Positions 11,939 to 53,556 of a stretch of DNA of 64,000 nucleotides are shown here, in pieces; position 1 is the stretch's first letter; each line of letters opens with the position of its first letter. This DNA comes from Mesorhizobium sp. ZC-5 (lineage in GTDB: Bacteria > Pseudomonadota > Alphaproteobacteria > Rhizobiales > Rhizobiaceae), in contig NZ_JAOWPT010000003.1 in NCBI RefSeq assembly GCF_025753855.1, positions 620,001 through 684,000 on the forward strand. The letters are read 5' to 3'. Both the position numbers and the translations under genes were made by a program. The notes beneath the pieces were generated by a model that made no database searches, was not told the DNA's origin, and saw only the letters and a program-made list of their open reading frames with translations.

Positions 11939-12041
11939 AAAGCGCGTCGCGCCGAATAGGATTCGGCGGCCGCGCTTCAGATTCTTTGATTTGATGCATG
12001 TCGTTATCCCGAAACCGAGGACACTTTCGGGCGACATGCAT
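11939..12041. repeat. RIME-type intergenic palindromic element
   Basis: The ~103-bp unit consists of two large palindromes. The first has AAGCGCG (11940-11946) with CGCGCTT (11971-11977) and, nested, CGCCGAAT (11950-11957) with ATTCGGCG (11961-11968). The second has ATGCATGTCG (11994-12003) with CGACATGCAT (12032-12041) and, nested, CCCGAAA (12008-12014) with TTTCGGG (12025-12031). Size and layout match the Rhizobium-specific intergenic mosaic elements. It fills the whole gap between convergent genes and abuts the tctA stop, so it could act as a bidirectional terminator or mRNA 3' stabiliser. Confidence 0.8.
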
Positions 12042-13549
12042 TAGTCCTCCTCGACGAACACCTCTTCGCGCTTCTTGCGGACGCTCGGCAGGAAGACCAC
12101 CACCAGCACCGCGGCGGCGAGCAGAAGCAGCACGGCGCTGATCGGCCGCGTCACGAAGGTCGTCGGATCGCCGCGCGCCAGGATCATGGCGCGGCGCAGG
12201 TTTTCCTCCAGCAGCGGCCCGAGCACGAAGCCGAGCAGCAGCGGCGCCGGTTCGCAGCGCAGTTTCAACAGGAAATAGCCGAGCACGCCGAAGAAGGCGA
12301 CGACGTAGAGGTCCCAGACGTTGGAGTTGACGCTGTAGACGCCGATCGAGCAGAACGCCATGATCGTCGGGAACAGCATGTAATAGGGCACCCTCAAGAG
12401 CCTCACCCACAGTCCGATCAGAGGCAGGTTGAGCACGATCAGCAGAAGGTTGCCGATCCACATCGAGGCGATCAGCCCCCAGAACAGCGCCGGCTGCTCG
12501 CTGGCGACGTTGGGACCGGGAACGATGCCCTGGATGATCATCGCGCCGATCATCAGCGCCATCACCGGGTTCGCCGGGATGCCGAGCGTCAGCATTGGAA
12601 TGAACGAGGTCTGGGCACCGGCATTGTTGGCCGATTCCGGTCCTGCCACACCGGCCAGCGCGCCTTTGCCGAACTCTTCAGGTTTGTCGGAGACGCGCTT
12701 TTCGATGGAATAGGAAGCGAAGGCGGCGAGCACAGCGCCGTTGCCGGGCAGGATGCCGAGCGCGGAACCGAGGGCGGTGCCGCGTAGGATCGGCGCCGCC
12801 ATGCGGCGGAAGTCGTCGCGCGTCGGCATCAGTCCCGTCACCTTGGTCATCAGCACCTGGCGCGTCCGCTCGTCCTCAAGGTTGCGCAGGATCTCGGCGA
12901 TGCCGAACAGGCCCACCGCGATGGCGACGAAATTGAGCTGGTCGCCAAGTTGGGTGAAGCCGAAATTGAGGCGCGACGCGCCGGAAATGACATCCTGTCC
13001 GACCAGGCCGAGAAGCAGGCCGAGTACCACCATGGCAATCGCCTTGACCACCGAGCCGTGCGCCAGTGCCACCGACATGACGAGGCCGACGATCATCAGC
13101 GAGCAATATTCCGCCGATCCGAACTTCAGCGCGATTGACGTCAGCGGCGGCGCGAACAGCGCGATCAGCACCGTGGCGATGGTGCCGGCGACGAACGAGC
13201 CGATCGCCGCGGTGGCGAGCGCCACGCCGGCACGGCCGTTGCGGGCCATCTGGTAGCCGTCGATGGCGGTCACCGCCGACGAGGATTCGCCCGGCATGTT
13301 GATGAGGATGGCGGTGGTCGAGCCGCCATACTGGGCGCCGTAATAGATGCCGGCCAGCATGATCAGTGACGAGACCGGGTCGCCGACCTGGAAGGTGATC
13401 GGCAAGAGCATGGCGATGGTCGCGGTGGCACCGATCCCCGGCAGGACACCGATCAGCGTTCCGAGCAGCACGCCGATCAGGCAGAAGCCGATATTGGTGA
13501 GGGTGGAGGCGGTGGCAAAGCCGAGCGCCAGATTGTCGAGGAGATCCAT
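12041..13549 (-). CDS. tctA: Tripartite tricarboxylate transporter, large permease TctA
   Basis: This 502-aa integral membrane protein has about 12 transmembrane helices and forms the major channel subunit of a TTT-family secondary transporter. The glycine-rich family signatures are visible near the N-terminus (LIGVLPGIGATATIAMLLP and GIYYGAQYGGSTTAIL) and in the middle (SALGILPGNGAVLAAF). It is the last of three genes in the order tctC, tctB, tctA on the minus strand, with 12 bp between tctB and tctA. The transported compound is probably citrate or a related carboxylate, but TTT substrates vary widely and cannot be read from sequence. Confidence 0.95.
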   Translation of the reverse strand: MDLLDNLALGFATASTLTNIGFCLIGVLLGTLIGVLPGIGATATIAMLLPITFQVGDPVSSLIMLAGIYYGAQYGGSTTAILINMPGESSSAVTAIDGYQMARNGRAGVALATAAIGSFVAGTIATVLIALFAPPLTSIALKFGSAEYCSLMIVGLVMSVALAHGSVVKAIAMVVLGLLLGLVGQDVISGASRLNFGFTQLGDQLNFVAIAVGLFGIAEILRNLEDERTRQVLMTKVTGLMPTRDDFRRMAAPILRGTALGSALGILPGNGAVLAAFASYSIEKRVSDKPEEFGKGALAGVAGPESANNAGAQTSFIPMLTLGIPANPVMALMIGAMIIQGIVPGPNVASEQPALFWGLIASMWIGNLLLIVLNLPLIGLWVRLLRVPYYMLFPTIMAFCSIGVYSVNSNVWDLYVVAFFGVLGYFLLKLRCEPAPLLLGFVLGPLLEENLRRAMILARGDPTTFVTRPISAVLLLLAAAVLVVVFLPSVRKKREEVFVEED

Positions 13550-44544: not shown

Positions 44545-46524
<1,980 letters not shown>

Positions 46525-46631
46525 CGCGTGAAGCTGCCTGCATCTGCTCGACATCGGCGGCCGGTCTCTGCTAGAAACCGGTCGCTTTCGAGAGGCGCGG
46601 ACCATTTGGGGTAACCTTTAGGGAGGGGAAG

Positions 46632-47249
46632 ATGCCAGAAGAGCTACTTGCGGAACTCACAATCGGTGACCATGAATTTTTAAACAATGAGCGTATCCAA
46701 ACTGGCAGACTCCGGGTGTTGGCGAACTCTACATGGCAGGTGAGGCATGGTTGCCAAGTGTACATCGAGTGCCAGGTGCTTACGCTCGATGGGAGCCTTA
46801 CCCTGGATGTTCGCGGCGAGAACGGCGTGGACGGGATCAATGGTAGTCCGGATCGGCCAGGGTGGCTCAGCGGTCCACCAGAGGACCATAGAGCGGCGTG
46901 CTGGAATTGGTGGCTGGCCGTGAACACGGAGAACAAGAGCGAGGAAGGCGTCGACGCGACTCCCGGCACCGACGGGGGCGACGGCGGTATGCTGACAATA
47001 CGCTATGTAAAGACGGGAACCGGAACTGATCTGGGTTCAATCAAAGACCCCCTTACAAGCGGCGGTATGCCCGGCAAGCCCGCTTACGGCAGCAAGGGCC
47101 AACTGATGGTTTGTGGTGCGCCCTACCACCCGCACCTCAAGGGCCACGTAAGGCAACGACCAAACGGTCGAGACTGGTACGGCCAACCAGGGCGGCCGGG
47201 AGAAGTTGTAATTGAACGCATCACAAGCGTCGTCGCCTGGCCGAGCTAA
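46632..47249 (+). CDS. Orphan Gly-rich protein with collagen-like Gly-x-x stretches
   Basis: The 205-aa protein has no signal peptide and no domain I recognise. Residues 10-60 look beta-rich (LRVLANSTWQVRHGCQVYIECQVL). Several Gly-x-x segments follow: GENGVDGINGSPDRPG (about 62-77), TDGGDGG (about 113-119), GGMPGKPAYGSKG (about 143-155) and GQPGRPGEVVIERI (about 184-197). A strand-and-glycine-loop pattern like a beta-solenoid is possible. The base composition is visibly more AT-rich than the genes on both sides, suggesting later acquisition. GGGAGGGGAAG precedes the ATG, a strong Shine-Dalgarno. Function unknown. Confidence 0.65.
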   Translation: MPEELLAELTIGDHEFLNNERIQTGRLRVLANSTWQVRHGCQVYIECQVLTLDGSLTLDVRGENGVDGINGSPDRPGWLSGPPEDHRAACWNWWLAVNTENKSEEGVDATPGTDGGDGGMLTIRYVKTGTGTDLGSIKDPLTSGGMPGKPAYGSKGQLMVCGAPYHPHLKGHVRQRPNGRDWYGQPGRPGEVVIERITSVVAWPS

Positions 47250-47454
47250 CGGGCGGTTGCAAGCGCTTGGCTGAAGGCGGCTTCGAAGCGCTGCGGGACG
47301 ACACCGTGCAATCTCCGTGAAAGCGGCCTGCATCCGGGTGATCGCGTCACACGCAAGGCTCCGAGCCGACTTCACACACAACCGTTCCGAAGCATCCGGC
47401 GGTCGCGTGCCCGCCGCTGGATCGCCAGATGCCGGGCGCGAAGGCGGAACGAGC

Positions 47455-48936
47455 ATGGATCAGCAGGTCGACAACACCAAGCCTCCGGCATCCGAGCTGG
47501 TTCTGTCTCAGCAGCAGAAGAATGTCGTGATCGGCGGCGTGCTTCTTGCCATGCTGCTCGCCGCGCTCGACCAGACGATCGTGGCTCCCGCCATGCCGAC
47601 GATCGGCAGCGCGCTCGGCCATGCCCAGTACCTGCCGTGGATCGTGACGGCCTATCTGCTGGCGGCTACCGCGCTGGCGCCGCTCTATGGGAGGATTTCG
47701 GACATTTACGGCCGCCGCCCGACCATCATGGTGGCGATCGCGATATTCCTTGCCGGCTCCGTCATCAGCGCGATTGCGCCGGACATGCTGACGCTGATCA
47801 TCGGCCGCGCCGTTCAGGGCATCGGCGGCGGCGGGCTCTTCACCATGTCGCAGACGATCATCGGCGATCTGGTGCCGCCGCGCGAGCGGGCGCTCTACGC
47901 GGGCTGGATCTCCGGCATGTGGGCGGTCGCCAGCATCGCCGGGCCGCTGCTTGGCGGCGCTTTCGCCGAGCATCTGCACTGGTCTCTGATCTTCTGGATC
48001 AACCTGCCGCTCGGCGTCGTCGCGGTCCTGACCATCAACGGGCCGCTGAAGCGCCTGCCTGTCGCCGGCCGTCGCCACAGCATAGACGGCTGGAGCGCGG
48101 CGCTGCTGATCGTCGCCACCTCGCTTCTGCTGCTCGCCCTCAACTGGGGCGGCAGCACCTATCCGTGGAGATCGCCGGAAATTCTCGGGTTGCTTGGCGG
48201 CTCCGTGCTGGGTTTCGCCGCACTCGGCATCCGCCTTGTGAAGGCATCCGAGCCGCTGATCTCGCTCGAAATCCTCGGCAACCGGGTGGTGCTGTTCGGC
48301 ACGCTTGGCGTCTTCATGCTTCAGGGCGCCAACATCGGCCTTGCGGTCTACCTGCCCGTCTATCTGGAATCGGTGCAAGGATTGACGGCGGGCGAGTCCG
48401 GACTGGGGCTGCTGTCGCTGCTGCTCGGCACCGTGGCCGGTGCGTCTATGAGCGGCCGCCTGACGGCGAAGCTCGTCCACTACAAGCGCATCGCTCTCTT
48501 CGGCATCTGCATCAGCGTCGCCGCGGTGATCGTGCTCGCTGTCGTGGCGGCGAGTGCGCCGCTCTGGCAGATCGAAGTCCTGCTCGCCATCGTCGGCATC
48601 GGTTCGGGCACGGTATTTCCCGTCACCACCGTCTCGGTGCAGAACGCCGTCGACCGCGCCCATCTTGGCGTCGCCACCGGCGTGCTCACCTTCCTGCGTT
48701 CGCTCGGCAGCGCGCTCGGCGTCGCGGTGCTGGGCGCGGTCGCCCTCGGCTACGGCATTCCGCTCGCCGGCGAAGCGATGCGCCATCACGCGGCCGCCGG
48801 TTCCGGCGACGGTTTTGCGATGATCTATTTCGTCTGTGCGCTGATGCTGGTCCTCGGGCTGGTGTCGCTGGTCCTGATGCCGGAGAAGCCGCTGCGGGGA
48901 TCTGCCGACAACACGCCACCGCCCATGGAGGGCTGA
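47455..48936 (+). CDS. MFS drug-resistance exporter, EmrB/QacA type
   Basis: The 493-aa inner-membrane protein has 14 predicted helices. The family motif D1 is LDQTIVAPAMPTIG (near residue 40), motif A is LYGRISDIYGRRP (near 75-87), and motif C-like AVASIAGPLLGGAF (antiporter signature) is near 160. It is probably a proton-driven exporter of toxic organics. The start at 47455 (MDQQVDNTKPP) is preferred to 47317, which would add a long non-membrane leader. No TolC or adaptor partner lies next to it. Confidence 0.9.
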   Translation: MDQQVDNTKPPASELVLSQQQKNVVIGGVLLAMLLAALDQTIVAPAMPTIGSALGHAQYLPWIVTAYLLAATALAPLYGRISDIYGRRPTIMVAIAIFLAGSVISAIAPDMLTLIIGRAVQGIGGGGLFTMSQTIIGDLVPPRERALYAGWISGMWAVASIAGPLLGGAFAEHLHWSLIFWINLPLGVVAVLTINGPLKRLPVAGRRHSIDGWSAALLIVATSLLLLALNWGGSTYPWRSPEILGLLGGSVLGFAALGIRLVKASEPLISLEILGNRVVLFGTLGVFMLQGANIGLAVYLPVYLESVQGLTAGESGLGLLSLLLGTVAGASMSGRLTAKLVHYKRIALFGICISVAAVIVLAVVAASAPLWQIEVLLAIVGIGSGTVFPVTTVSVQNAVDRAHLGVATGVLTFLRSLGSALGVAVLGAVALGYGIPLAGEAMRHHAAAGSGDGFAMIYFVCALMLVLGLVSLVLMPEKPLRGSADNTPPPMEG

Positions 48937-48966
48937 GGCAGGCATTGTCCGGCGCGAACTGGTCTC

Positions 48967-49944
48967 CTACGGGGTGCCGCGAATGATCGGCATGATCAGA
49001 TCCAGCCGGTCGGTGGAGATGCCGCCAGAATAGCCGGCCGGAAGCTGCCTGACCGTTTCCGGATCGTTCAGCCCGTCGGAAAAGCCACCGCCATGATAGG
49101 GGCCGAGCAGATAGACGCGCGTGCCCGCTGCCTCCATGCGGTCGAGGAAGCGGTCCGGCCAGCCCCACAGCCACGGCGCGATGTTTATCGGGATGAGCAA
49201 TGACGTTCCCCGGCAGGATTCCGGCACGTAGCCGCTCCAGCCGAGCCCTGCATAACGTAGGACGCAGTGCATCAGCGTCTTTCGCGACAGCACGCGCTGG
49301 TCGGGCAGGGCCGCCTTGACGGTGTCGACGGGGGTGTTGCCGCCATAGACGGTGTGCAGCCTGCGTTCATCGGGTGGCAGCGTCGTCAGGTAGGCGGCAA
49401 GCTTCTCGCCCTCGGAGGCATCATTGCTCTTAACGTTGATATGGAAGGCGCGGCCGGGAAATTGCGAAAAAACCTCGTCGAGCGAGGGCATCAGACCGAC
49501 GCCCTTGCCCCGGAACGGAAATGTCTTGCCGCTGTCCGCGGTGTAGCCGTAACCGACATCCAGCTTCTTCAACTCGGCCATGGAATGCTCGCGGGTGACG
49601 CCGCTGCCTTCGGTACGGCAGTCGAGCGTCCAGTCGTGGAACACGGCGAACTTCCCGTCGGTGGTCGGGTGCACATCGAGTTCCAGCACGTCGGCGCCCG
49701 CGGCGAACGCCGCTTCCATCGAACGAATCGTGTTTTCCAGATAGTCGTGCCGCGGCGGCAGCATGCGTTCGGCGGTGCAGGTGTCGCCGGTCAGCCCCTC
49801 GCGGCTGTATTCCTGCGCCAGGCCGCGATGCGCAAGGATGACAGGCTTGCCGGCGGGACGGCTGGAAAGCAGCGACGTGTTGTTCAGATAGACGGCACCG
49901 GCGATCGCCAGCAGCGATAGGAGTGCGACGGTGCGCTTGCGCAT
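48967..49944 (-). CDS. Glycerophosphodiester phosphodiesterase family protein
   Basis: The 325-aa exported enzyme has an N-terminal hydrophobic signal (5-22) and a GDPD TIM barrel. Motifs present: VILAHRG (His of the catalytic pair, near 36), ENTIRSMEAAFAAGADVLELDVHPTTDG (Glu-Asn and ELD metal ligands), and FHDWTLDCRTEGSG (second His). GDPDs hydrolyse deacylated phospholipids to glycerol-3-phosphate. The start at 49944 has GAGAGG upstream. It is divergent from the repeat-protein gene. Confidence 0.88.
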   Translation of the reverse strand: MRKRTVALLSLLAIAGAVYLNNTSLLSSRPAGKPVILAHRGLAQEYSREGLTGDTCTAERMLPPRHDYLENTIRSMEAAFAAGADVLELDVHPTTDGKFAVFHDWTLDCRTEGSGVTREHSMAELKKLDVGYGYTADSGKTFPFRGKGVGLMPSLDEVFSQFPGRAFHINVKSNDASEGEKLAAYLTTLPPDERRLHTVYGGNTPVDTVKAALPDQRVLSRKTLMHCVLRYAGLGWSGYVPESCRGTSLLIPINIAPWLWGWPDRFLDRMEAAGTRVYLLGPYHGGGFSDGLNDPETVRQLPAGYSGGISTDRLDLIMPIIRGTP

Positions 49945-50130
49945 GAAATGCCTCTCACGGGAATCTGGGCGCCAGCCTAAATATCGATGCGGCGATTTCG
50001 CGGCTGTGACACGGTTGTCCAGGGGCAATCGAAACCGGCCGGATTGTTTCGCCAACCGGTTGCAGTTGACGGAACGTCGCTACTTGGCGATGATCTGCCT
50101 TGGGTTGGGGCATGCACGAGGACTGTGCAC

Positions 50131-51492
50131 ATGACGGAAGTCGGCTCCATGGCGGCAGGTCGTGCCGCGGATCGTGGCTCGGTAGCGGGTTATTCAGGCG
50201 AGAGCATGGGATCCTCCAGGTCCTCGTCAACATCCTCCTCGAGCACATCCGGTTCATCCAAAAGTTCCAGCTCCCGCTCCGATTCGGGGTCGTTCGGGGA
50301 AGGTTCGATGGCTGCCGGCCGCGCGGCGGATCGCGGCTCGGTCGCTGGTTATTCTGGCGACAGCCGGCAGGGCAGCGGTTCCAGCTCCCGCTCCGATTCG
50401 GGGTCGTTCGGGGAAGGCTCGATCGCCGCTGGCCGTGCCGCGGACCGCGCTTCGGTCGCCGGCTATTCGGGCGACAGCAAGGCTAGCCGGGATCGGGCGT
50501 CGTTTGACGCAACGGTCAATTCGATGGCCGCCGCCCGCGCTGCCGACAGAAGATCGGTTCCGGGGTATTCCGCCGATTCCAGGCCGTCAGTTTCATCCGT
50601 CGAAAGGGCGCGCGTAACCGACGCCTACGCGGAATACGCGAGGTCCATGCTCCAGGCCGGGGTGACCCTGTCGGGAAAACCCATCGGGGTCACCAATGAA
50701 GGTCTGCTCGATACCGTGACGAATTCGGTGTCCGATTTCATCAACGAAGCGGTTGAACCGGTGACGAAAGCATTGGGGCCTATCTCATACGCGATATCGG
50801 GACTGTCCATGGTGCCGGACATCACCAAACTGAGCGGGCTTGCCTATGCGAGTTCCGTTCTGAACAGGGCCAAGCCCCTTCATTCAGCGACCATAAGGTC
50901 GATCTGGAACGCAAGCACGGTGGATCAGGCCCAGGGCTTCCTCAAGACCGGGCAGGCCAAAACCGCGATGCAAACCGCATCCGAATTTGCCGAAAGGGTG
51001 GGAAAAATATCGACCGGTTTGAGCATTTCCCTGGTCGGCCTCGCGGCGGCGCTCGAATACCAGTCCACCGGCAGCACGCTGAAAGCCACGGGCACACTCA
51101 CGGCCGAAACGGTCGACGCGGGCATTGGCGCCCTGGTGACGGCCGGTGCGGCGTGGGGTGCGGCGGTAGGGGCACCGGCCGCCGGTGTGGGAGCGCTTCC
51201 GGGCGGTGTGATCGGCGGGTTGATCGGCGCCGGCACGTATCTGGCGGCTTCCCAGTCCGATTGGTATCAGGATGCAAAGAAGTCGATCAAAACGGGGACG
51301 GAATCGTTGCTGAACGGATTTTCCTGGACCGCGGCGGAAGAGGCCTTTGCGCCCTATGCGCAAATGCAGACATCACCGGGGTTCAGCTATGGGCTTGGCT
51401 ATCGGTTTGGCGAATGGCTGGCTGGAAAGGATACTGAACCGACTACCGGGATGTCGGAGTTCGACGACCGCGACGGACATAACCGCCGCTGA
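50131..51492 (+). CDS. Ser/Gly repeat protein with uncharged hydrophobic hairpin-like segment (putative toxin-like)
   Basis: This 453-aa protein matches no family I recognise. Residues 6-25, 59-78, 97-116 and 131-150 are four copies of S-(M/I)-AA-(G/A)-RAADR-x-SV-x-GYS-x-(E/D)-S. The first three are separated by Ser-rich disordered linkers including SRSDSGSFGEG twice. Residues 155-325 look helical. Residues 330-373 form a 44-residue Gly/Ala/Val run with just one charged or strongly polar exception at its edge, broken by Pro349 and Pro357, like a helical hairpin. A basic amphipathic stretch follows. There is no signal peptide. ATG 50131 (GAGGA upstream) is preferred to 49987. A four-TM protein follows directly. 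Disordered Gly/Ser N-terminus plus C-terminal hydrophobic hairpin is the plan of pore-forming colicins; this is inference from architecture. Confidence 0.65.
   Translation: MTEVGSMAAGRAADRGSVAGYSGESMGSSRSSSTSSSSTSGSSKSSSSRSDSGSFGEGSMAAGRAADRGSVAGYSGDSRQGSGSSSRSDSGSFGEGSIAAGRAADRASVAGYSGDSKASRDRASFDATVNSMAAARAADRRSVPGYSADSRPSVSSVERARVTDAYAEYARSMLQAGVTLSGKPIGVTNEGLLDTVTNSVSDFINEAVEPVTKALGPISYAISGLSMVPDITKLSGLAYASSVLNRAKPLHSATIRSIWNASTVDQAQGFLKTGQAKTAMQTASEFAERVGKISTGLSISLVGLAAALEYQSTGSTLKATGTLTAETVDAGIGALVTAGAAWGAAVGAPAAGVGALPGGVIGGLIGAGTYLAASQSDWYQDAKKSIKTGTESLLNGFSWTAAEEAFAPYAQMQTSPGFSYGLGYRFGEWLAGKDTEPTTGMSEFDDRDGHNRR
50264..50417 (+). repeat. Exact 40-bp direct repeat inside the Ser/Gly repeat gene
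   Basis: Bases 50264-50303 recur identically at 50378-50417, 114 bp (38 codons) apart, encoding the SSSRSDSGSFGEG linkers. Identity at all codon positions points to a recent in-frame duplication, so copy number may vary between strains. Confidence 0.9.
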
Positions 51493-51523
51493 TGGATATG
51501 GCGCGGGACGGGTCCATATTGTC

Positions 51524-52192
51524 GTGAAACTGATCGAGGATATCCAGGATAGGCTGGTTCGCCGGCACTTCTACCGCTCGCCCGGCGAAGCCGTGTTCTT
51601 TTCGGATAGCCACGGCAATGCGGTGGACGAAACCGGCAAGCCTCTTTTCTATCGCGACGGCGCCTTGTGGTATGTCGGCGCGGCGCATCAGTCGGAAAAG
51701 TTCAAGAGGAGCATCTTCGCTATGCTGCTGGTGGCAATGCTGGTCCCGATCGTCCTTCTGATAAACAGGTCGCCGAATTCGATCGCCTGGGCCGTGGTTG
51801 TTTTTGCTGGCGTCATATCGCTGCTCCTCTTTGCATTTTTCCGGTCCAGAAAAGAGCAGGCCGCCGATATGTCGGAAGGGAGGACCTTCAGGAGAATCAC
51901 CTACACGGAATTCCGAAGAAAATTTTTCGGATACAATTCTTCCGTCAGGACGTTCTCGTATGGCGGTTTTTTCGCCCTGAGCTTCGCCTGCATTTTCACG
52001 CTGACCGCATTGCTGCTCTCGCACGGCGCCGTGCAATATCTGTTCGTGTTCGCATTCCTGGCAATGGCGGCTTTTCTCGTCCTCGCCCTCTACTCGCTGG
52101 CCGTCAGGAAGGCATGGGAGCGGTATCGCGCCAGCCACGGCCTGGCTGCCGAGGATTTCATCCGCCCGACCGGAGAAGCGTTGCCGCGGTGA
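51524..52192 (+). CDS. Four-TM membrane protein paired with the Ser/Gly repeat protein
   Basis: The 222-aa product has a soluble N-terminal domain (1-60) and four hydrophobic helices at about 63-80, 86-106, 147-166 and 170-194. A basic cytoplasmic-type loop (107-145) lies between pairs. I see no ATG in frame near the start; GTG 51524 is the best candidate, 32 bp after the upstream stop, with GGGACGGG before it. Longer starts lie inside the preceding gene. Position and topology would suit an immunity protein for a membrane-acting toxin, or a secretion/anchoring partner. No family recognised. Confidence 0.65.
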   Translation: MKLIEDIQDRLVRRHFYRSPGEAVFFSDSHGNAVDETGKPLFYRDGALWYVGAAHQSEKFKRSIFAMLLVAMLVPIVLLINRSPNSIAWAVVVFAGVISLLLFAFFRSRKEQAADMSEGRTFRRITYTEFRRKFFGYNSSVRTFSYGGFFALSFACIFTLTALLLSHGAVQYLFVFAFLAMAAFLVLALYSLAVRKAWERYRASHGLAAEDFIRPTGEALPR

Positions 52193-52204
52193 CCGCCAAA
52201 CGGC

Positions 52205-53461
52205 TCACGCCTTGTAGATCACCTGGCGAACGTCGATGTATTCGGCGCGGAAGCCGGCTTCGCAGTAGTGGAGGTAGAACTCCCACAGCTTCTTGAAGCG
52301 GTCGTCGAAGCCGAGCGGCACGATCTTTTCCCACGACGCCCAGAAGCGGGTGCGCCATTCGGCCAGCGTGCGGGCATAATCCTGCGGGAAGGCGCGTTCG
52401 CGCAGGAACGACAGCCCTTGCTCGGCGCCAAGCGATTTCAGGATCGCCGGCGTCGGTAGCATGCCGCCCGGAAACACGTAGCGCTGGATGAAGTCCGGCC
52501 GCTTGCGGTAGGTCGGGTAGGCGGCCTCGTTGATGGTGATGATCTGCAGCCCGGCCATGCCGCCCGCTCTCAGGCACTCCTTCACCTTGCCGAAGAACAC
52601 CGGCCAGTATTTTTCGCCGACCGCCTCGAACATCTCGATCGAGGCGATGCGGTCGTATTTGCCTGTCTCGTCGCGATAATCCTGCAGCTTGATCTCGACC
52701 TTGTCGTTCAGCCCGGCCTTGGCGATGCGCTCGCGGGCGAAATCGTGCTGCTCGCGGCTGATGGTGAGCCCGGTCACCTTGCAGCCGATCTCGCGGGCGA
52801 CGAATTCGGCGAAACCGCCCCAGCCGCAGCCGATCTCGAGCACATGGTCGCCGGACCCGATGCCGACGTCGCGCGCCAACGCCCGGTACTTGGCGTTCTG
52901 CGCGCTTTCCAGATCGTTGGCGCCCGCCGAAAACAGCGCCGACGAATAGGTCATCGTCGGGTCCAGCCACTGTTTGTAGAACTGGTTGCCGAGATCGTAG
53001 TGCGCGGAAATGTTGCGCTTCGAGCCGTGCCTGGTGTTCTCGTTCAGCCAGTGGCGGATGCGCTGCACAGTGATCAGCAGCCAGTTGGCGCCGCCAGCGA
53101 CCCTTTCGCCGGCTTCGTTGTTGACGACGAAGAGTTCGAGGAAGCTGGTGACGTCCGGGCTTTCCCAGTCGCCGTCCATGTAGGATTCGGCAACCCCGAT
53201 CGTGCCGCCGGCAAAGGCCCGGCCGGGCAGGTTCCAGTTGTTGAGGATGAGTTCGGCTTCGGGGCCGGGGGCATTGCCGCCGACGATGACCGACCGCCCG
53301 TCCGGCATGCGGATGGTGAGCGAGCCGCGCGGCAGGCCCATGCCCGCGGAAAGCACCATCCTGGCCTTGGCGGGAAGTCCCCTCGATATTTCCGCCAGAT
53401 TTTCCGCGGTGAGCCGCACCGGCGCGCTCCACGCGATTCCGTCAGTCCGATCCTTTTCCAT
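52205..53461 (-). CDS. Cyclopropane-fatty-acyl-phospholipid synthase family methyltransferase
   Basis: The 418-aa SAM-dependent enzyme adds a methylene or methyl group to double bonds of membrane phospholipid acyl chains. The N-terminal lipid-binding domain is at 1-150, the SAM-binding motif VLEIGCGWGG at 207-216, a YDLGNQFYKQWLD segment at about 155-167, and the C-terminal part contains the active-site region RYVFPGGMLP. The start at 53461 is preferred to 53482, although Shine-Dalgarno support is modest. It is the last gene of a row with the DUF1365 and FAD-oxidoreductase genes. Confidence 0.9.
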   Translation of the reverse strand: MEKDRTDGIAWSAPVRLTAENLAEISRGLPAKARMVLSAGMGLPRGSLTIRMPDGRSVIVGGNAPGPEAELILNNWNLPGRAFAGGTIGVAESYMDGDWESPDVTSFLELFVVNNEAGERVAGGANWLLITVQRIRHWLNENTRHGSKRNISAHYDLGNQFYKQWLDPTMTYSSALFSAGANDLESAQNAKYRALARDVGIGSGDHVLEIGCGWGGFAEFVAREIGCKVTGLTISREQHDFARERIAKAGLNDKVEIKLQDYRDETGKYDRIASIEMFEAVGEKYWPVFFGKVKECLRAGGMAGLQIITINEAAYPTYRKRPDFIQRYVFPGGMLPTPAILKSLGAEQGLSFLRERAFPQDYARTLAEWRTRFWASWEKIVPLGFDDRFKKLWEFYLHYCEAGFRAEYIDVRQVIYKA

Positions 53462-53556
53462 CGTCCAACCCTGTGGGCGCAAAGCCGCCCGATCTTGCCC
53501 CTCTCAACAGCAAATACCCCTCCCGAAGCATCTGCCCTCGGGAAAGGTTTGCAAGG

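Follow-up and report, generated by a model that had tools for sequence, protein, structure and literature searches.

Hydrophobic or glycine-zipper parts depolarise or permeabilise membranes in a range of described bacterial systems, including Tme/Tmi (PMC7046647), Tse4, Tde1 (PMC10240207), the CDI ionophores (PMC11630599) and Cdz (PMC5380434), and several such membrane-acting toxins are accompanied by membrane immunity proteins. Reports of pore-forming T6SS effectors are comparatively few, according to the abstract on Ssp4 (PMC12669606). Ssp4 and Sip4, a pore-forming T6SS effector of Serratia and its immunity protein, are encoded in a three-gene insertion (PMC12669606). Tme and Tmi are membrane-disrupting T6SS effectors and their immunity proteins, and Tme carries a DxxK motif followed by a TM helix (PMC7046647).

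Here we describe a two-gene locus, P1 and P2, in the window, by which we mean the whole 64,000-nucleotide stretch of Mesorhizobium sp. ZC-5 DNA that was analysed (Table 1). A comparison of layouts supports the view that P1/P2 would work like Ssp4/Sip4 and Tme/Tmi; no family membership is claimed. Our main reading, to which we assign a probability of about 0.5, is that P1/P2 comprises a membrane effector specific to this lineage, probably delivered by a T6SS, and the matching immunity protein.

Table 1 Features of the P1-P2 locus, numbered from the first nucleotide of the window.
Feature	Position	Strand	Properties or evidence
Segment not present between the corresponding flanking genes of G002 and G009	46525..52204		Holds 205-aa orphan gene, MFS transporter, GDPD, P1 and P2
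P1, putative membrane-acting effector	50131..51492	+	453 aa, ATG start; codon score, selection on repeats
P1 repeat unit copy 1, residues 6-25	50146..50205	+	DNA identity, unit pattern, pN/pS
P1 repeat unit copy 2, residues 59-78	50305..50364	+	DNA identity, tandem duplication, unit pattern, pN/pS
P1 repeat unit copy 3, residues 97-116	50419..50478	+	DNA identity, tandem duplication, unit pattern, pN/pS
P1 repeat unit copy 4, residues 131-150	50521..50580	+	DNA identity, unit pattern, pN/pS
P1 uncharged Gly/Ala/Val segment, residues 330-376	51118..51258	+	GxxxGxxxG chains from 339, 354 and 358; prolines 349 and 357
P2, putative immunity protein	51524..52192	+	222 aa, GTG start; four hydrophobic helices, N- and C-termini predicted inside

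By analogy of arrangement, Ssp4/Sip4 appears to be the nearest layout to P1/P2. Ssp4 has no known domain and is encoded in a small insertion, its homologues often lie far from T6SS genes, and the downstream immunity gene encodes four predicted TM helices with both termini inside (PMC12669606); P2 has the same arrangement by hydropathy and positive-inside count. The two systems differ in that Ssp4 homologues are reported across Gammaproteobacteria whereas our searches found none for P1, in that Ssp4 has a confident helical model and P1 does not, and in that a four-copy repeat N-terminus like that of P1 is not mentioned in the available description of Ssp4, with which P1 was compared by description only (PMC12669606).

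The likeness to Tme/Tmi lies in a hydrophobic C-terminal domain and in diverse downstream immunity proteins, most of them with 3-6 TM helices (PMC7046647). The order of DxxK and then a TM helix described for Tme (PMC7046647) was, however, not found in P1, where DxxK occurs only at residues 230 and 381, the latter behind the hydrophobic segment and the former followed by a short run (234-245). DUF1240, which marks the main Tmi type, was absent from the Pfam matches of P2 up to E 1, and some Tmi proteins are described without a DUF1240 link (PMC7046647).

The other systems share single elements with P1/P2. CDI ionophores have a Gly-zipper motif, but these toxins are CdiA C-termini whereas P1 is a 453-aa protein, and their immunity proteins have 72-100 residues and two helices (PMC11630599) as compared with 222 and four in P2. 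Tde1, a T6SS effector of Agrobacterium tumefaciens, also has a membrane-permeabilising GxxxG zipper, although there it sits at the N-terminus and its role is the import of a DNase domain (PMC10240207). In contrast to Tde1 (Ntox15), P1 gave no Ntox15 or nuclease Pfam match up to E 1, and its candidate immunity partner, P2, is a membrane protein. Cdz of Caulobacter, an alphaproteobacterium, combines Gly-zipper proteins with a small transmembrane immunity protein; CdzC (86 aa) and CdzD (84 aa) are encoded together with a type I secretion system (PMC5380434), whereas P1 has 453 aa and, by Pfam, no type I secretion gene among eight neighbours. Re78/Re79 of Rhizobium etli was set aside because Re79 has a signal peptide and is periplasmic (PMC10215855).

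An earlier, sequence-only reading of this DNA had proposed a pore-forming toxin and its immunity protein on the model of colicins. Pore-forming colicins have a hydrophobic hairpin and a polytopic immunity protein encoded next door, and their immunity genes are usually on the opposite strand. P1, by comparison, gave no colicin-type Pfam match, including to the pore-forming domain, up to E 1, P1 and P2 are on one strand, and no lysis gene was visible to that reading or is present among the eight neighbours scanned. The colicin-specific comparison is thus reduced to a general analogy of mechanism, and the broader proposal of a membrane effector with a polytopic immunity protein is retained as the best fit by layout.

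The hydrophobic segment of P1 and its putative partner P2

P1 consists of a Ser-rich N-terminus with repeats, a core, an uncharged Gly/Ala/Val run and a further 77 residues. The run had been described as a 44-residue segment (330-373) broken by two prolines; it is indeed uncharged with prolines at 349 and 357, and its actual length is 47 residues (330-376). This is the longest uncharged run in residues 155-453, as compared with a mean of 23.3 in shuffles, and 47 residues were reached by 0.34% of 20,000 shuffles of that region (P 0.0034). Additionally, GxxxG-like spacing (G or A) in residues 327-376 exceeded that in shuffles (P 0.008; strict GxxxG, P 0.03), and the GxxxGxxxG chains flank the two prolines on both sides. 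An uncharged stretch of at least 40 residues with two GxxxGxxxG chains was found in 1 of 93 codon-scored ORFs, taken from the window, C3:684-700 kb and C11:8-48 kb, with P1 itself left out as its codon score lies below the threshold. The single ORF with such a stretch (12041-13549) is, we presume, transporter-like.

The arms of the putative hairpin have mean hydropathies of 1.29 and 1.35, and the best 19-residue window of P1 scores 1.57 at residues 290-308, with none reaching 1.6. These values would fit a soluble hairpin with later membrane insertion, but also a Gly/Ala-rich soluble stretch. The structure model of P1 is uninformative (mean pLDDT 35.5, all residues below 50), and pore formation and other membrane damage by P1 would be indistinguishable on the present sequence-derived data. 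A tape-measure reading was also considered, given one PHROG match over residues 324-393 (E 3.5e-4). It was rejected because no phage gene lies among the scanned neighbours and because Gly zippers are known to occur in tape-measure proteins as well, as noted in the report on Tde1 (PMC10240207).

P2 has four hydrophobic segments (approximately residues 62-82, 86-106, 146-166 and 170-192), in agreement with the four TM helices noted earlier, which are arranged as two hairpins with 3-residue loops. The three long parts contain 9, 10 and 6 Lys/Arg residues and the two loops none, which by the positive-inside rule places both ends inside. The single-sequence model of P2 likewise shows four helices (pLDDT 57.7); compared with PDB folds it gave 33 matches up to E 10 and none at 1e-3, a result of little meaning at this pLDDT.

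Neither protein matches a Pfam or NCBIfam family above its cut-off, and the best family matches of P2 (NCBIfam E 0.0017, Pfam E 0.0032) map to TM stretches and miss the cut-offs by a wide margin. Among 101 genomes of relatives, P1 and P2 were each found in the own genome only, and P1 in one of three genomes of the genus, again its own. At the level of the family, the P1 core (155-453) matched 3 of 390 genomes at E 1e-3, namely the own genome and two others, whose loci were read as holding MFS-like and outer-membrane-barrel-like proteins and were discarded. P2 gave matches in 28 of 395 family genomes at E ≤0.1, where only the own genome passes 1e-3 and the other 27 lie at 0.006-0.1, and no P2 relative was seen in the ORFs of five weak-match family loci. 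Pattern scans of genome_contigs and viral_contigs yielded no relative of either protein; such scans of the 84,980-species collection use short peptide patterns, reach no further than close relatives and may omit records of the same or very near genomes. P1 had no match in plasmids or phages and P2 none in plasmids. The best match of P1 to PDB sequences had an E of 0.2, and PADLOC returned nothing for P1 and one weak match for P2 (E 0.037). Distant homologues of both may therefore exist.

In the class, the P1 core gave matches in 81 of 385 genomes at E ≤1 and in 8 at ≤1e-3, own included, and all seven non-own matches at the stricter threshold overlap P1 residues 327-373. Four of these seven (L006, L008, L009 and L012) were read as Gly-zipper lipoproteins; the remaining three (L007, L010 and L011) gave no clear reading, L010 and L011 having been read on the wrong strand. 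The four lipoprotein-like matches show that a Gly zipper is not specific to toxins. They also favour an explanation that we consider unlikely, although it is the best of the alternatives: a non-antagonistic envelope pair in which P1 would act from the cytoplasm as a scaffold or anchor, docking on the membrane through its Gly/Ala hairpin and collecting partners with its repeats, and P2 would be the membrane partner. The lack of a toxin family match for P1 or P2 is in line with such a role, and repeated short units on a Ser-rich tail would suit a docking scaffold too. P1 has, however, no signal peptide or lipobox as judged by reading the sequence, housekeeping genes would be expected in relatives and yet P1 was confined to its own genome in the relatives and genus counted above, and the segment that carries the pair is missing from two relatives.

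Proposed delivery and mode of action

The genome has one TssB match, and its T6SS cluster lies on a contig other than that of P1-P2. Nine proteins of this cluster were scanned with Pfam, of which seven correspond to TssC, Hcp, TssF, DotU, IcmF, DUF2169 and a Tox-PAAR-like protein, and two have no match. The presence of this system in the genome suggests a T6SS as the delivery machine of P1. At the cluster end (L112:17441-19501, own C11:45441-47501), the Tox-PAAR-like protein is followed by 232-aa and 318-aa proteins without a Pfam match, which are possibly an effector and its immunity protein; an 'AHHIIP' stretch in the 232-aa protein looks HNH-nuclease-like.

The scheme that we infer, comprising toxicity, pore formation, immunity, T6SS delivery and a role for the repeats, would serve competition among bacteria and run as follows. 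P1, synthesised with no signal peptide, would be passed on to an apparatus that acts by cell contact, the likeliest being the T6SS whose genes lie on another contig, and its Ser-rich N-terminus with the four repeat units may serve for loading or delivery. Once in the envelope of the target cell, the Gly/Ala hairpin (330-376), itself marginally hydrophobic, would enter the inner membrane together with helices next to it; these parts might associate via their Gly zippers, causing an ion leak. P2, folded as two helical hairpins in the inner membrane of the producer, would block the insertion or the assembly of P1.

Genes for T6SS components, adaptors or spikes are common, though not obligatory, neighbours of T6SS cargo effectors. 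No T6SS gene lies among the eight neighbours of P1-P2 scanned with Pfam, and a toxin and immunity protein of the same kind could be released by another route (bacteriocin-like, type I or another contact system), with the repeats binding a target receptor. The colicin analogy drawn from the sequence alone leans this way, as does the precedent of Cdz, a Gly-zipper bacteriocin exported by a type I system in an alphaproteobacterium (PMC5380434). Against it, the eight neighbouring proteins scanned include no exporter and no lysis protein, and the missing colicin-type match weighs on the same side; we regard such a route as improbable. Over all delivery routes together, a membrane effector with an immunity partner has somewhat better than even odds. 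Counting against the main reading are the lack of homologues in these searches, the uninformative P1 model, the modest hydropathy of P1, the absence of T6SS genes from the scanned neighbours, the weak codon score of the repeat region and the Gly zippers of the lipoprotein-like matches. If the T6SS-delivered reading is true, the pair would add a pore-forming T6SS effector with a different N-terminus, whose repeat array can be tested as a delivery tag, and would illustrate how such genes may stand alone in small genome-specific segments and be missed by known-family searches.

Coding evidence and the repeat array of P1

The coordinates, strand and lengths of P1 and P2 hold as first read, and so does the position of P2 downstream of P1 on the same strand, with the gap corrected from 32 to 31 bp. 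Relative to nearby genes, P2 scores 0.247 per codon, the other five frames reaching at most -0.042, and the P1 core scores 0.083 per codon, with the other frames at or below -0.112. The repeat region of P1 scores -0.115, and two other frames are slightly higher (-0.055 and -0.111); because of this low score, it is the pattern of silent sites that serves as coding evidence there.

Four copies of a 20-residue unit, as originally noticed, follow the pattern S[MI]AA[GA]RAADRxSVxGYSxxS (n=4; M/I at residues 7, 60, 98 and 132) in an N-terminus with 46 Ser within residues 1-155. Invariant columns make up 14 of 24 in an alignment of the units and their flanks. Over 67 nt of DNA, copy 1 shares 78, 78 and 61% identity with copies 2, 3 and 4, respectively, and copies 2 and 3 lie within a 114-nt tandem duplication with 88% matches. 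Among the copies, pS (0.54-0.77) exceeds pN (0.02-0.22) in 6/6 pairs, each pair showing 9-12.5 synonymous as against 1-9.3 nonsynonymous changes. Since the copies differ mostly at silent sites, the protein unit is under selection. We have high confidence that P1 and P2 are a real gene pair.

The N-terminal 153 residues of P1 matched only themselves in the own genome, apart from one match at E 0.45. Searching 397 genomes of the order with a repeat profile produced matches at E ≤0.1 in 90 of them, own included, and no second P1-like protein was seen in the 12 repeat-profile loci that were read, some of them on the wrong strand. The two best matches (L081 and L082, near base 1501) are helicase-like proteins, presumably AddA-like, that contain 'TRAADRLY(I/V)AGYSGKS', a stretch resembling the P1 unit; the similarity was taken as chance. 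A precedent for the array was found neither in this profile search nor in a literature search that brought up one unrelated paper, which is thin evidence for novelty. What is most novel here is the array, which perhaps acts as a delivery tag. In a bolder version, which is speculative and rather unlikely, the four-copy S[MI]AAxRAADRxSVxGYS unit on its Ser-rich tail would be a new multivalent tag, for loading or for receptor binding, that carries a Gly-zipper pore-former out of the cell, and P1/P2 would be the first pair of a class of membrane effectors tagged by repeats.

The genomic segment

P1 and P2 stand at the end of a 5,680 bp segment between a 5'-nucleotidase gene (44545-46524) and a CFA synthase gene (52205-53482). 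In two relatives these flanking genes lie close together: approximately 130 bp apart in G002 (protein identity 95% and 92%) and approximately 145 bp apart in G009 (76% and 75%). Ten relative loci were examined, and both flanks are present in these two only; in the remaining eight, the stretch compared contains no 5'-nucleotidase match and so cannot show an empty site. P1, P2, the MFS, the GDPD and the 205-aa gene had no match at E 1e-4 in any of the ten. GC3 is lower in P1 (0.71), P2 (0.74) and the 205-aa gene (0.64) than in five native neighbours (0.78-0.88), while that of the MFS (0.86) and GDPD (0.81) genes is not. The absence of the segment from G002 and G009 and the lower GC3 of P1 and P2 are as expected of an acquired accessory pair. 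This lineage thus appears to have gained a composite segment, with loss in the relatives as the alternative; no mobile element was identified at the segment ends.

At E 1e-3, and with up to 4 candidates scored in each genome, segment DNA had matches in 24 of 61 genomes, the own genome among them; among the non-own matches listed, all are in the MFS part, two in the GDPD part and none over P1-P2. Matches of 71-75% to the MFS part occur in the ten plasmid records listed, which are mainly from Shinella and Ensifer. That P1 and P2 are unrelated orphans carried by the same segment, or that P1 is non-functional, would agree with the lack of homologues, the low codon score of the repeat region and this mixed segment, whose MFS and GDPD parts match different genomes and the rest none, but is the least probable alternative, as the repeat copies are conserved as protein despite changes at silent sites, P2 is clearly coding by score, and the two genes lie 31 bp apart on one strand.

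The 205-aa gene (46632-47249), which lies at the segment end opposite to P1-P2 and encodes a Gly/Asp-rich orphan, has no Pfam or plasmid match and the lowest GC3 and codon score among the segment genes. In G002 (L055:7228-7423), the DUF1365 gene beside the CFA synthase gene is represented by two short matches only, and the stretch fetched from that genome has no FAD gene match. At the corresponding site, a different relative, G001 (L056:8237-9147), has approximately 0.9 kb of other sequence between an EAL gene and the CFA synthase gene, with no 5'-nucleotidase match and no ORF above the score threshold. In three family genomes (L113, L058 and L114), a gene with no match to the MFS of the window at E 1e-4, transporter-like by reading, lies 3' of the CFA synthase gene.
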